Shown piece by piece: positions 7,787 to 11,471 of a stretch of 12,200 nucleotides of DNA. The position numbers and the translations under genes were made by a program. The stretch covers positions 1 through 12,200 of the forward strand of contig JAIPJR010000117.1 of the NCBI GenBank assembly GCA_021734045.1, written 5' to 3'. How positions within the stretch are numbered: the first letter of the stretch is position 1; each line of letters opens with the position of its first letter. The notes below the pieces were generated by a model that was not told where the DNA came from, searched no databases, and saw only the letters and a program-made list of their open reading frames with translations. The stretch is from Fidelibacterota bacterium. GTDB lineage: Bacteria; Fidelibacterota; UBA8477.

Positions 7787-7852
7787 TATTATTTTTTCCA
7801 ATCTTATGTCTATAAAATTATGTTTGACAAGCTATGGCTCGCCGGTTACTTT
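7787..7852 (+). promoter_or_regulatory. Probable promoter of the rplM operon with AT-rich upstream segment
   Basis: A perfect -35 hexamer TTGACA (7824-7829) is followed after exactly 17 bases by TACTTT (7847-7852), which keeps the three most important -10 positions (first T, A, last T). The roughly 35 bases before the -35 are very AT-rich, like an UP element. The bases just after the -10 are ACGCCGC, a GC-rich discriminator of the kind seen at growth-rate- and ppGpp-controlled ribosomal promoters in well-studied bacteria. Transcription would start near 7859, leaving a leader of about 54 bases before rplM. No promoter of similar quality is visible elsewhere in the 227-base gap. The start site is predicted. 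Confidence 0.6.
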
Positions 7853-7871
7853 ACGCCGCTTTTTTCTAACC

Positions 7872-7910
7872 ATAGCTCGAAACCTTTGATAGATACTGAA
7901 AGGGAGCTGT
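7872..7910 (+). promoter_or_regulatory. Predicted SD-sequestering leader hairpin of rplM (candidate L13 autoregulatory site)
   Basis: In the leader, AGCTC (7874-7878) and CCTTT (7883-7887) can pair with the uninterrupted 3' strand AAAGGGAGCT (7899-7908). This leaves a GAAA bulge (7879-7882) and an 11-base loop (7888-7898). Two further pairs, one of them G-U, extend the stem to 7872 and 7910. The 3' strand contains the rplM SD (AAAGGGAG), so the folded form would block ribosome binding. L13 represses its own operon in E. coli, and leader motifs for L13 are known in other groups. L13 binding here is an inference; the pairing itself is read directly from the sequence. Confidence 0.5.
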
Positions 7911-7912
7911 CT

Positions 7913-8344
7913 TTGAAGACTTATAATGTGCGAGCGAGCGAGATTCAGAAAGATTGGTGGGTAGTCAATGCTGCCGATCAAACCCTGGGGCGGCTTGCTA
8001 CGGAGATCGCGCGGATTTTGCGCGGAAAACATAAACCGACATTTACACCACATCTGGACACGGGTGATTTTGTGGTGGTCATTAATGCAGATAAAATCGT
8101 GGTTACCGGGAATAAGGAAATCCAAAAGATTTATCGGCGACATTCCGGATATCCGGGTGGTATGAAAGAATCTCGGTTGGCTGAAGTGCGGGAAAAACAT
8201 CCTGACCGTATTATCCAGAACGCCGTGAAAGGCATGCTGCCCCATACAAGTCTGGGAAGGGCACAGATGAAAAAGCTGAAAATTTATGCCGGCCCGAGCC
8301 ATCCCCACGAAGCACAACAACCCAAAGAATTAAAATTAGGTTGA
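7913..8344 (+). CDS. rplM: 50S ribosomal protein L13
   Basis: Large-subunit protein L13, an early assembly protein that binds 23S rRNA. The protein from the TTG at 7913 is 143 residues, close to the 142 of E. coli L13. It aligns by eye from the first residues: [18 protein letters not shown], then [45 protein letters not shown], and [22 protein letters not shown]. The C-terminal HPHEAQQP is also characteristic. An upstream in-frame start at 7820 would add about 31 unrelated residues and would lie before the predicted promoter. By contrast, the TTG has a strong SD, AAAGGGAG, ending 6 bases before it. The gene heads the operon; rpsI follows 5 bases after its stop. Confidence 0.96.
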
Positions 8345-8349
8345 GGTAA

Positions 8350-8745
8350 ATGAGTACAAGCACCATGTATTATGCAACCGGACGACGGAAAACCGCAATT
8401 GCGCGGGTCTGGGTGAAACCGGGTAAGGGTGAGATAAAAATCAACCATCGCGGAATGGACGAATATTTTGGCCGCAAGACCCTACGGATGGTGGCTAAGC
8501 AGCCCCTTGGTGTGGTCGAAGGTGATGGTGAATATGATATCCATGTCAATGTTGCCGGTGGAGGACTCGCCGGGCAGGCAGGCGCTATTCGTCTGGGGGT
8601 CGCCCGTGCATTACAGTCATTCAATGCTGATTTTCGCGGACCGCTGAAAAAAGCGGGTCTGCTAACACGTGATGCTCGTAAGAAAGAGCGCAAAAAATAC
8701 GGTTTGGCTGGTGCCCGTCGGGCATTCCAGTTCTCCAAACGTTAA
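8350..8745 (+). CDS. rpsI: 30S ribosomal protein S9
   Basis: Small-subunit protein S9, 131 residues, whose basic C-terminal tail reaches the decoding centre and contacts P-site tRNA. The sequence shows the family opening [23 protein letters not shown]. It also has [38 protein letters not shown] and the terminal FQFSKR, the arginine/lysine-ended tail expected for S9. The ATG at 8350 comes 5 bases after the rplM stop. The only SD-like stretch (TGAGGT, 8342-8347) overlaps that stop and is unusually close to the start, so translation is probably coupled to rplM. The rplM-rpsI pair is conserved across bacteria. Confidence 0.97.
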
Positions 8746-8763: not shown

Positions 8764-9504
8764 ATGGCGAAAGTCACTTTAGAAAATTTACTAGCTGCCG
8801 GAGCCCATTTTGGTCATGTGACCAGCAACTGGGATCCCAATATGCGGAAGTTCATCTTCACGCAAAAAAACGGTGTCTATATTATCGACTTATATCAGAC
8901 ACTGGAACAGCTCACCAAAGCAATCGATTTTATCGGCCAGCGTGTTCGAGATAACGGTTCAGTTCTGTTTGTGGGAACGAAAAAAACTGCTCGGCAGGTC
9001 ATCCAGGAAGAGGCTGATCGTTGTGGAATGTTTTATGTCACTGAGCGGTGGCTAGGTGGTACCCTAACCAACTTCGTGACCATAAAAAAATCTATTAAAC
9101 GGCTCCATGCATTGGAGAAGGAAAACCAGACGGAACTCGCAGAGACATTAACGAAGAAGGAGATGTTGATGCGGGATCGTGAACGTCAGCGGCTGGAGAC
9201 CCAGCACCGTGGCATCAAGGAAATGCGCCGTTTACCCGATGTTGTGGTGGTTGTGGACGCCCGGAAAGAAGCGATCGCGGTGCAGGAAGCCCGCCGGCTG
9301 GAAATTCCTGTGGTGGCCATTGTTGATACCAATACAGATCCCACAGATATTGATTTTCCCATTCCGGCGAATGATGACTCCATCCAGACGGTTCGCCTTA
9401 TTGTTTCTGCCATGGCTGAAGCGATTATGGAAGCCAAAGGAACTGCCACAGCAAAGTCTGAGGAATTGGAAGCGGGCGAAAACACGGAAGCATCAGCTAA
9501 TTAA
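8764..9504 (+). CDS. rpsB: 30S ribosomal protein S2
   Basis: Small-subunit protein S2, 246 residues, bound at the platform/head junction near S1. Characteristic segments are LLAAGAHFGHVTSNWDPNMRKFIF near the N-terminus, GVYIIDLYQTLEQL, and VLFVGTKKTARQVIQEEA. ERWLGGTLTNFVTIKKSI, LPDVVVVVDARKEAIAVQEARRLEIPVVAIVDTNTDP and the closing NDDSIQTVRLIVSAMAEAI follow. The acidic tail after about residue 225 is variable in the family. A strong SD, GAGGAG (8753-8758), lies 5 bases before the ATG. The gap from rpsI is only 18 bases, leaving no room for a separate leader of the kind known upstream of rpsB in E. coli. Confidence 0.97.
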   Translation: MAKVTLENLLAAGAHFGHVTSNWDPNMRKFIFTQKNGVYIIDLYQTLEQLTKAIDFIGQRVRDNGSVLFVGTKKTARQVIQEEADRCGMFYVTERWLGGTLTNFVTIKKSIKRLHALEKENQTELAETLTKKEMLMRDRERQRLETQHRGIKEMRRLPDVVVVVDARKEAIAVQEARRLEIPVVAIVDTNTDPTDIDFPIPANDDSIQTVRLIVSAMAEAIMEAKGTATAKSEELEAGENTEASAN

Positions 9505-9540: not shown

Positions 9541-10164
9541 ATGGCCATTACGGCAGCAGCAGTTAAGGAATTACGCGATAAAACCGGCGCAGGCATGATG
9601 GACTGCAAGTCAGCCCTGAGTGAAGCGGATGGGAATATAGAAAAAGCAATTGAGCTCTTACGGAAAAAAGGTATTGCCAAAGCTGCAAAAAAAAGTGGTC
9701 GATCTACCAACGAGGGTGCCATTTTCACCTATTCACATGCTGGGAATCAATTGGCGGCTCTGGTTGAGGTAAACTGCGAGACCGATTTTGTGGCCAATAC
9801 GGATGATTTTCAAAACCTGGGCCACGATCTGGCAATGCATATTGCTGCTGCGGCACCGTTAGTGGTGAATAAGGAAGAAGTGCCGGCTGATTTATTAGAA
9901 AAAGAAAAAGAGATTTATAGAACTCAGGCGGAAAATGAAGGGAAGCCCGCTCAGGTGGTTGACCGGATTGTTGAAGGCCGGGTTGAAAAGTATTATAAAG
10001 AAGTTGTTCTGTTGCACCAGCCGTTTATCAAGGAAGATAAGCAAACTGTTGGTGAGCTCATTACAGCCGCCATCGCGAAATTGGGTGAGAACATCTCAGT
10101 AGCCCGTTTTGCGCGGTTTGCATTGGGTGAAACATCAGGTGACGCTTCTGATTCACAGGAATAA
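9541..10164 (+). CDS. tsf: Elongation factor Ts
   Basis: EF-Ts, 207 residues, the nucleotide exchange factor that removes GDP from EF-Tu in the cytoplasm. The N-terminal UBA-like domain reads VKELRDKTGAGMMDCKSALSEADGNIEKAIELLRKKG. The core carries the diagnostic NCETDFVANTDDF motif, in which the TDFV segment contacts the EF-Tu nucleotide site. The protein is shorter than E. coli EF-Ts (about 280 residues). It matches the compact form found in many bacteria with a single, reduced core domain, so it need not be truncated. SD GGAGAG (9529-9534) sits 6 bases before the ATG. It follows rpsB by 36 bases; rpsB-tsf is a near-universal pair. Confidence 0.97.
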   Translation: MAITAAAVKELRDKTGAGMMDCKSALSEADGNIEKAIELLRKKGIAKAAKKSGRSTNEGAIFTYSHAGNQLAALVEVNCETDFVANTDDFQNLGHDLAMHIAAAAPLVVNKEEVPADLLEKEKEIYRTQAENEGKPAQVVDRIVEGRVEKYYKEVVLLHQPFIKEDKQTVGELITAAIAKLGENISVARFARFALGETSGDASDSQE

Positions 10165-10192: not shown

Positions 10193-10921
10193 ATGCAGCA
10201 GCCAGCGTATAAGCGAATCCTGTTAAAACTCAGCGGAGAATCGCTTGCCGGACCCGCAAAGACGGGTATTAACCCCGAAATAACCCAAAAATTTTCACGG
10301 GAAATAAAAGCCGCATTTGATGAAGGTGTTCAAATTGGCATCGTTATCGGCGGTGGAAATATTTTTCGCGGGTTAAGCGCCAAAGCCGCCGAAATTGAGC
10401 GGGTAGCAGCTGACCACATGGGTATGTTAGCCACGGTCATTAATGCCATCGCTCTCCAGAACGCCATTGAGCAAGCAGGAATTCCAACGCGCATTCTCAC
10501 CGCAATCGAGATGAATGAAATTGCCGAACCCTTTATTCGTCGCAGAGCGTTGAGACATTTGGAAAAGGGGCGCGTAGTCATTTTCGCCGCCGGCACGGGA
10601 AATCCATATTTCACCACAGATACGGCCGCTGCTTTACGAGCGATTGAAATTAACGCGGATGTCGTCATCAAAGGGACTCGTGTTGATGGTATTTACTCAG
10701 CGGACCCCGAAAAATACCCGAATGCCAAAATCTTAAAAACGCTTGATTACATGGATGTCATACAGCAAAATTTGCGCGTGATGGATCAAACAGCGATTAC
10801 ACTTTGTAAAGAGAATAAAGTACCGATTCTGGTATTTAACATGGATATCCCAGGAAATTTGCGCAGGGTCGTCCGTGGTGAGAATATCGGATCGTTGGTT
10901 TCAGGAGGGGAAAATGCTTAA
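10193..10921 (+). CDS. pyrH: UMP kinase
   Basis: Uridylate kinase of the amino acid kinase superfamily, 242 residues. It phosphorylates UMP to UDP with ATP in pyrimidine nucleotide synthesis and is usually a hexamer regulated by GTP and UTP. Visible motifs are [14 protein letters not shown] (phosphate-binding lysine and glycine loop), [11 protein letters not shown], and the [16 protein letters not shown] helix. The UMP/ATP site [19 protein letters not shown] and [15 protein letters not shown] complete the set. The ATG at 10193 gives the normal family length; an in-frame stop (10184-10186) lies just upstream. No SD can be seen in the 28-base gap from tsf, unlike the other genes of this operon, so expression may be lower or depend on readthrough translation. 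Its last 8 bases overlap frr. Confidence 0.97.
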
Positions 10922-11471
10922 AGAATTTACCGAAGACGCCGCTGCTCGCATGGAAAAGGCGGTGGAACATATTCACCACGAATTTGCAGGGATTCGTACG
11001 GGTCGTGCATCGGTTGCATTACTGGATGGCATTAAGGTGGAATATTACGGAACGATGACACCGTTGAATCAGGTCGCCAGCATTTCCATCCCGGAGCCGC
11101 GACTTATCACCATTCAGCCATGGGACAAGTCAATGGTCAGTGCCATTGAGAGAGCGATTCTCGTGGCAGATCTGGGGTTAAATCCTGGCAATGACGGACA
11201 GATTATCCGGATTCCCATCCCGCCGCTCACGGATGAGCGTCGTAAGGAATTAATTCGATTTATGCACAAGCTGGCAGAAGAGGGACGGGTGGCTGTTCGC
11301 AATGTACGACGGGATGTGAATGAGCAAATTAAAAAAAGTGAAGCTGCTCATGAACTATCTGAGGATAATGCTAAACGCGGCCTGGAAAACATCCAAGAAA
11401 TCACCAATAAATACATCGCGGAAATTGATGAATTGGTGAAGAAAAAAGAAGTGGATATCATGGAAGTTTAG
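10914..11471 (+). CDS. frr: Ribosome recycling factor
   Basis: RRF, 185 residues, the same length as E. coli RRF. With EF-G it splits post-termination ribosomes. The sequence begins [33 protein letters not shown] and has [20 protein letters not shown] from the hinge-side domain. The three-helix domain carries [25 protein letters not shown] with the conserved arginines, and it ends [10 protein letters not shown]. The start is fixed by a perfect SD AGGAGG (10903-10908) 5 bases before the ATG at 10914, inside the end of pyrH. An in-frame start at 10875 would add 13 residues and is rejected. The 8-base overlap with pyrH indicates translational coupling. A terminator follows 29 bases after the stop. 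Confidence 0.97.

Follow-up and report, generated by a model that had tools for sequence, protein, structure and literature searches.

A bulged hairpin predicted to bury the rplM ribosome-binding site as a candidate translational operator of a six-gene cluster

The locus described here raises the question of whether the Shine-Dalgarno (SD) sequence of rplM is held in a leader hairpin as a means of control. The window, i.e., the whole stretch of 12,200 nucleotides that was analysed, is contig C38 of G000, a 2.54-Mb metagenome-assembled genome with Candidatus Neomarinimicrobiota as its closest named kin. The sequence-only reading had placed the putative control at the head of a cluster of six genes. 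The order is indeed rplM-rpsI-rpsB-tsf-pyrH-frr, with the following genes assigned.

7913-8344, forward strand: rplM (uL13), TTG start (TIGR01066, 210.6 bits)
8350-8745, forward strand: rpsI (uS9) (NF001099)
8764-9504, forward strand: rpsB (uS2) (TIGR01011)
9541-10164, forward strand: tsf (EF-Ts) (TIGR00116)
10193-10921, forward strand: pyrH (UMP kinase) (TIGR02075)
10914-11471, forward strand: frr (ribosome recycling factor), probable start at 10914 (TIGR00496)

The window's family is called f1 here (genus g1), its sister family f2 (genus g3), and f6 is a further family of the same phylum. The rplM start at TTG 7913 is backed by the TIGR01066 match and by the retention of TTG in relatives, and this start codon is conserved across families f1, f2 and f6. 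An in-frame ATG further upstream at 7820 (ORF 7820-8344) was rejected as the start; its frame meets a TAG in G001 and in f2, and a frameshift and a TGA in G002. Since relatives do not keep this frame open, the rplM start could be wrongly placed there by a gene caller, and L13 would then be longer by 31 residues (window 7820-7912).

Whether the hairpin is transcribed was judged from the promoter region, which was compared among the relatives. The promoter and the predicted leader are composed of the following elements.

7824-7829, forward strand: -35-type element TTGACA (TTTG with the preceding T), invariant in f1 and f2 relatives, with the same architecture at tRNA genes
7847-7852, forward strand: -10-type element TACTTT (TAnnTT), 17 nt past TTGACA, spacing and TAnnTT fixed in all members of the order
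7853-7865, forward strand: GC-rich discriminator and T-run ACGCCGCTTTTTT, common to the tRNA-Leu, tRNA-Cys and tRNA-Asn promoters
7859-7912, forward strand: predicted untranslated leader of about 53 nt, between the promoter and the TTG start

The rplM promoter (7824-7865) reads TTGACA-N17-TACTTT-ACGC-CGCTTTTTT, and the consensus across two families of the order is TTTGACA-N17-TAnnTT-N4-CGCTTTTT(T); this DNA is conserved between the two families and the DNA further upstream is not. The pattern TTGACA-N16-18-TANNTT-N2-6-CGCTTTTT occurs at four sites in the 2.54-Mb genome and at none in the reversed control, and the four sites precede rplM, a tRNA-Leu gene, a tRNA-Cys/tRNA-Leu cluster and a tRNA-Asn gene. 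At the tRNA loci the -10 sequences are TATATT or TACTTT, and the tRNA-Leu gene begins 5 nt past the pattern and its T-run. This rare tRNA-type promoter is thus common to rplM (window 7824-7865) and three tRNA genes or clusters (L195, L142, L143), and because the pattern otherwise stands only before these, it points to a promoter of the stable-RNA type with a GC-rich discriminator. Its TTTG...TAnnTT form agrees with the promoter type known from Bacteroidetes (FCB-type). The position of the -10 box predicts a transcription start at about 7858-7860, which gives a leader of about 53 nt with the entire hairpin included. The hairpin at 7872-7910 is therefore predicted to sit wholly inside the transcript, and the start near 7859 obtained from the promoter comparison lies upstream of 7880, the limit beyond which a start would have told against the sequence-only reading.

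The hairpin itself has the following parts, all within the predicted leader.

7872-7878, forward strand: 5' arm of the outer stem, AUAGCUC, paired in 3 of 3 f1 genomes
7879-7882, forward strand: bulge GAAA (GAAAU in G002), from folding and alignment
7883-7887, forward strand: 5' arm of the inner stem, CCUUU, from folding and paired in f1 genomes
7888-7898, forward strand: 11-nt loop with two of the leader's few variable positions, from alignment
7899-7903, forward strand: 3' arm of the inner stem, AAAGG (5' part of the SD), from folding and paired in f1 genomes
7904-7910, forward strand: 3' arm of the outer stem, GAGCUGU (3' part of the SD), from folding and paired in f1 genomes
7899-7906, forward strand: SD AAAGGGAG, inside the stem (anti-SD duplex; unpaired probability 0.003)

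The pairing comprises 7872-7878 with 7904-7910 (7 pairs, one of them G-U) and 7883-7887 with 7899-7903 (5 pairs), so that a stem of about 12 pairs with a single GAAA bulge and the rplM SD in its 3' strand was recovered exactly as had been claimed, both in sequence and in pairing. The isolated hairpin has a folding energy of -10.5 kcal/mol (37 C), and the anti-SD duplex of the overlapping 8-mer AAGGGAGC has an energy of -6.9 kcal/mol. The closed state is predicted over 4 to 55 C with no transition, and a ligand or the ribosome must then open or exploit the hairpin. An alternative hairpin, AGCTATGG/CCATAGCT (7830-7837/7870-7877), was rejected; part of it falls in the promoter spacer, and its pairing is disrupted in G001, G002 and f2.

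Burial of the SD exceeds chance only moderately. Among 426 SD-bearing genes of the same genome, the rplM SD had the lowest mean unpaired probability (0.003) and ranked 30th in opening energy (8.8 kcal/mol, top 7%); the background was taken from sampled contigs, and these ranks are approximate because its starts were assigned by a simple SD rule. When the leader was shuffled with the SD and the start fixed, 15 of 1000 shuffles were as inaccessible and 101 of 1000 were as costly to open, the latter not being significant, and the global folding energy of the leader is ordinary (z -0.77 and z -0.57). The ordinary folding energy and the 101 equally costly shuffles would agree with a chance fold of an SD-rich leader, in which the conservation derives from the promoter, the initial transcribed sequence, the SD and close kinship. 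We regard this reading as rather unlikely, and it is opposed by the lowest accessibility among 426 genes and by the 15 of 1000 shuffles. Counted against an operator were the 101 shuffles, the 30th place among the 426 genes and the firmly closed SD itself, which is surprising in a gene that needs high expression.

The conservation of the hairpin was followed in three f1 genomes of one genus. All 12 pairs are kept in 3 of 3 genomes (36 of 36 cells paired), and the only stem change among the three sequences is one A-U to G-U, with no two-sided change. Elsewhere in the leader, one base is inserted in the bulge, and two positions of the loop and one of the linker differ. That all of these changes spare the stem, where the sole change still pairs, was counted for an operator, and the lack of compensatory changes among the f1 sequences was counted against it. 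The CCUUU and AUAGCUC arms remain paired though the loop and bulge vary, which argues against a chance fold; that only three related genomes are available and show no covariation argues for it. Between G000 and G002, identity is 89% in the leader, 74% in the coding sequence and 61% in the 100 bases that precede the promoter. A leader more conserved than its coding sequence points to constraint beyond the SD, as judged from the rplM leader alone in three sequences, and again speaks against chance. Viral contigs and plasmids yielded no further f1 leader sequences. Conservation in close relatives, without which the sequence-only reading would have been refuted, was seen for all pairs within the genus; the sister family lacks the structure and has an open SD. 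The structure is also absent from L018. Both absences were counted against an operator, and that of f2 likewise agrees with a chance fold.

In f2 the promoter is nearly invariant, and the leader is different from that of the window. Right after the T-run it reads (U)AUGACC-GUAGGU-GGUCAU(A), with variants such as UCCGGACC-GUAGGU-GGUCUGGA, which gives a hairpin of 7 pairs and a hexaloop after CGCTTTTT; the SD, AGAAGGA, follows the hairpin and is open (unpaired probability 0.65-0.78). Three pairs of this stem show two-sided changes in 18 cells, and the covariation was 0.414 against 0.205 in shuffles that leave shared ancestry in (0 of 500), 0.491 against 0.226 on 12 gap-free sequences, and 0.03-0.16 in slid controls. 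The varied types of two-sided change (UA/CG; AU/GU/CG/GC) favour real pairing. A covariance model, R1, built from 12 f2 leaders, matched once per genome in 18 g3 genomes, always at the leader of rplM, and did not match any other genome among the 245 searched in the phylum; scores within f2 were 37-73 bits, and four leaders outside the alignment (L013, L014, L016, L019) scored 37-55 bits. The loci of the f2 hairpin are L007 1449-1494 and its equivalents in L004-L020, L165 and L166, with G003/L018 excepted. No Rfam match was found for the f2 hairpin. A single RNA family of f1 and f2 leaders was rejected, the window leader scoring 11.2 bits (E 1.1) with model R1 as a non-member. The two leaders share the gene, the promoter, the place directly after the T-run and some letters (ACCRUAGSU), but the f2 hairpin has 7 covarying pairs, a hexaloop and a free SD, whereas the SD of the window is buried. 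The f2 hairpin is the better-supported structured RNA of the order and lay outside what the sequence-only reading could see. Since the rplM leader of f2 is likewise structured in the same position, and covaries, structure at this place is under selection in the order, which was counted for an operator.

In E. coli, uL13 has been demonstrated to repress translation of its own rplM-rpsI operon, as reviewed in PMC10931766 and as the sequence-only reading had stated. The E. coli rplM leader is 157 nt long; it comprises three hairpins, has a single-stranded enhancer and carries GGGU as an unusual SD (PMC10931766), and its hp1 is required for L13 binding in vitro (PMC6736130). Like the window leader it is structured and precedes rplM, and it acts on rplM-rpsI translation (PMC10931766); unlike it, the window leader has about 53 nt, one bulged hairpin and a strong SD in the stem. 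The L13 leaders put forward in different phyla are unrelated in structure (PMC7247131). Predicted L13 leaders also precede rplM-rpsI(+rpsB) in Bacteroidia (an r-leader candidate, PMC7247131) and in Firmicutes (Rfam). The window gave no match to the L13 leaders of Rfam 15 at gathering score, and its leader none to any Rfam family at E up to 10, with only a chance CrcZ hit elsewhere, so that the remark in the sequence-only reading on the lack of resemblance to other L13 leaders stood for those in Rfam. The rplM leaders scanned in the phylum likewise matched no Rfam family.

Mimicry of rRNA is common but not obligatory in ribosomal protein operators. The longest match of the window leader to rRNA is 11 nt in the 3' region of 16S, and 4.3% of SD-bearing 55-mers match equally; AGGGAGCUGUC is also present in the 16S of G002, as chance predicts. 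That no mimicry beyond chance was seen was counted against an operator. With SD-sequestering operators of ribosomal proteins in general, the window shares a hairpin whose 3' strand holds the SD, the ligand and the regulation being putative here, and by prediction the window leader fits such an operator in that its SD is paired in a leader hairpin and that this hairpin is part of the predicted transcript.

We tentatively favour, at somewhat less than even confidence, a lineage-specific, SD-sequestering translational operator of rplM-rpsI-rpsB-tsf-pyrH-frr, which would most likely be kept closed by excess free uL13. The tRNA-type promoter at 7824-7865 would transcribe the six genes with a leader of about 53 nt, and this leader is strongly predicted from its sequence to fold into the bulged 12-pair hairpin with the rplM SD as its 3' strand. 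The 30S subunit would be blocked from the SD while the hairpin is closed. Surplus free uL13 may bind and stabilise the closed form, and L13, together with the products of the next genes by presumed translational coupling, would be made only at the rate at which rRNA takes it up. uL13 is favoured as the ligand because it is encoded by the first gene, is the autorepressor in E. coli (PMC10931766) and has had unrelated leaders proposed for it in different phyla (PMC7247131). Of the autogenous operator proposed from the sequence, the burial of the SD, the position in the transcript and the conservation in the genus have held; the architecture is compatible with an operator, and binding of L13 is putative.

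An unlikely alternative is that the hairpin and the weak TTG start lower rplM initiation against a strong tRNA-type promoter with no ligand at all. The lowest SD accessibility of 426 genes, a TTG start kept in all three families and the strong promoter type fit such damping, which leaves unexplained the bulge, the 5' part of the leader and the conservation of nearly all 53 nt above that of the coding sequence. It is quite improbable that an operator is read by uS9, by uS2 or by some other RNA-binding protein in place of uL13, or is opened by a helicase; genes for uS9, uS2 and EF-Ts do lie in the cluster, and the sequence does not reveal the identity of the ligand, but uL13 is the product of the first gene and is known to regulate the operon in E. 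coli (PMC10931766). Least probable is a transcription attenuator or an RNA thermometer: the stem has no U-run after it, so there is no intrinsic terminator, and a bulged hairpin over the SD is frequent among thermometers, but this one is predicted to stay closed at all temperatures between 4 and 55 C, with no transition, which makes a thermometer unlikely.

In family f6, all ten rplM leaders (L021, L023, L025, L026, L027, L029, L147, L149, L150 and L155) hold AGTCCCGGAA, which lies in a stem-loop in the five leaders that were folded, and the stem sequences vary between genera. No Rfam match was found among the f6 members scanned, and the stem-loop is a separate candidate L13 leader. It is conceivable, though doubtful, that the Neomarinimicrobiota swap rplM leaders by family, with at least three unrelated structures (the bulged hairpin of the window, the GUAGGU-loop of f2 and the AGUCCCGGAA stem-loop of f6) placed at the operon's 5' end and all binding uL13.

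If L13 reads the window leader, the proposed operator would be one more L13 operator and a very compact one, and it would explain how a strongly promoted operon is balanced with a TTG start. Taken with the f2 hairpin and its covariation, it would mean a fast exchange of leaders in one lineage in which the promoter is retained. The exchange from family to family, if true, would offer a natural series of RNAs that serve one protein and arose independently of each other.
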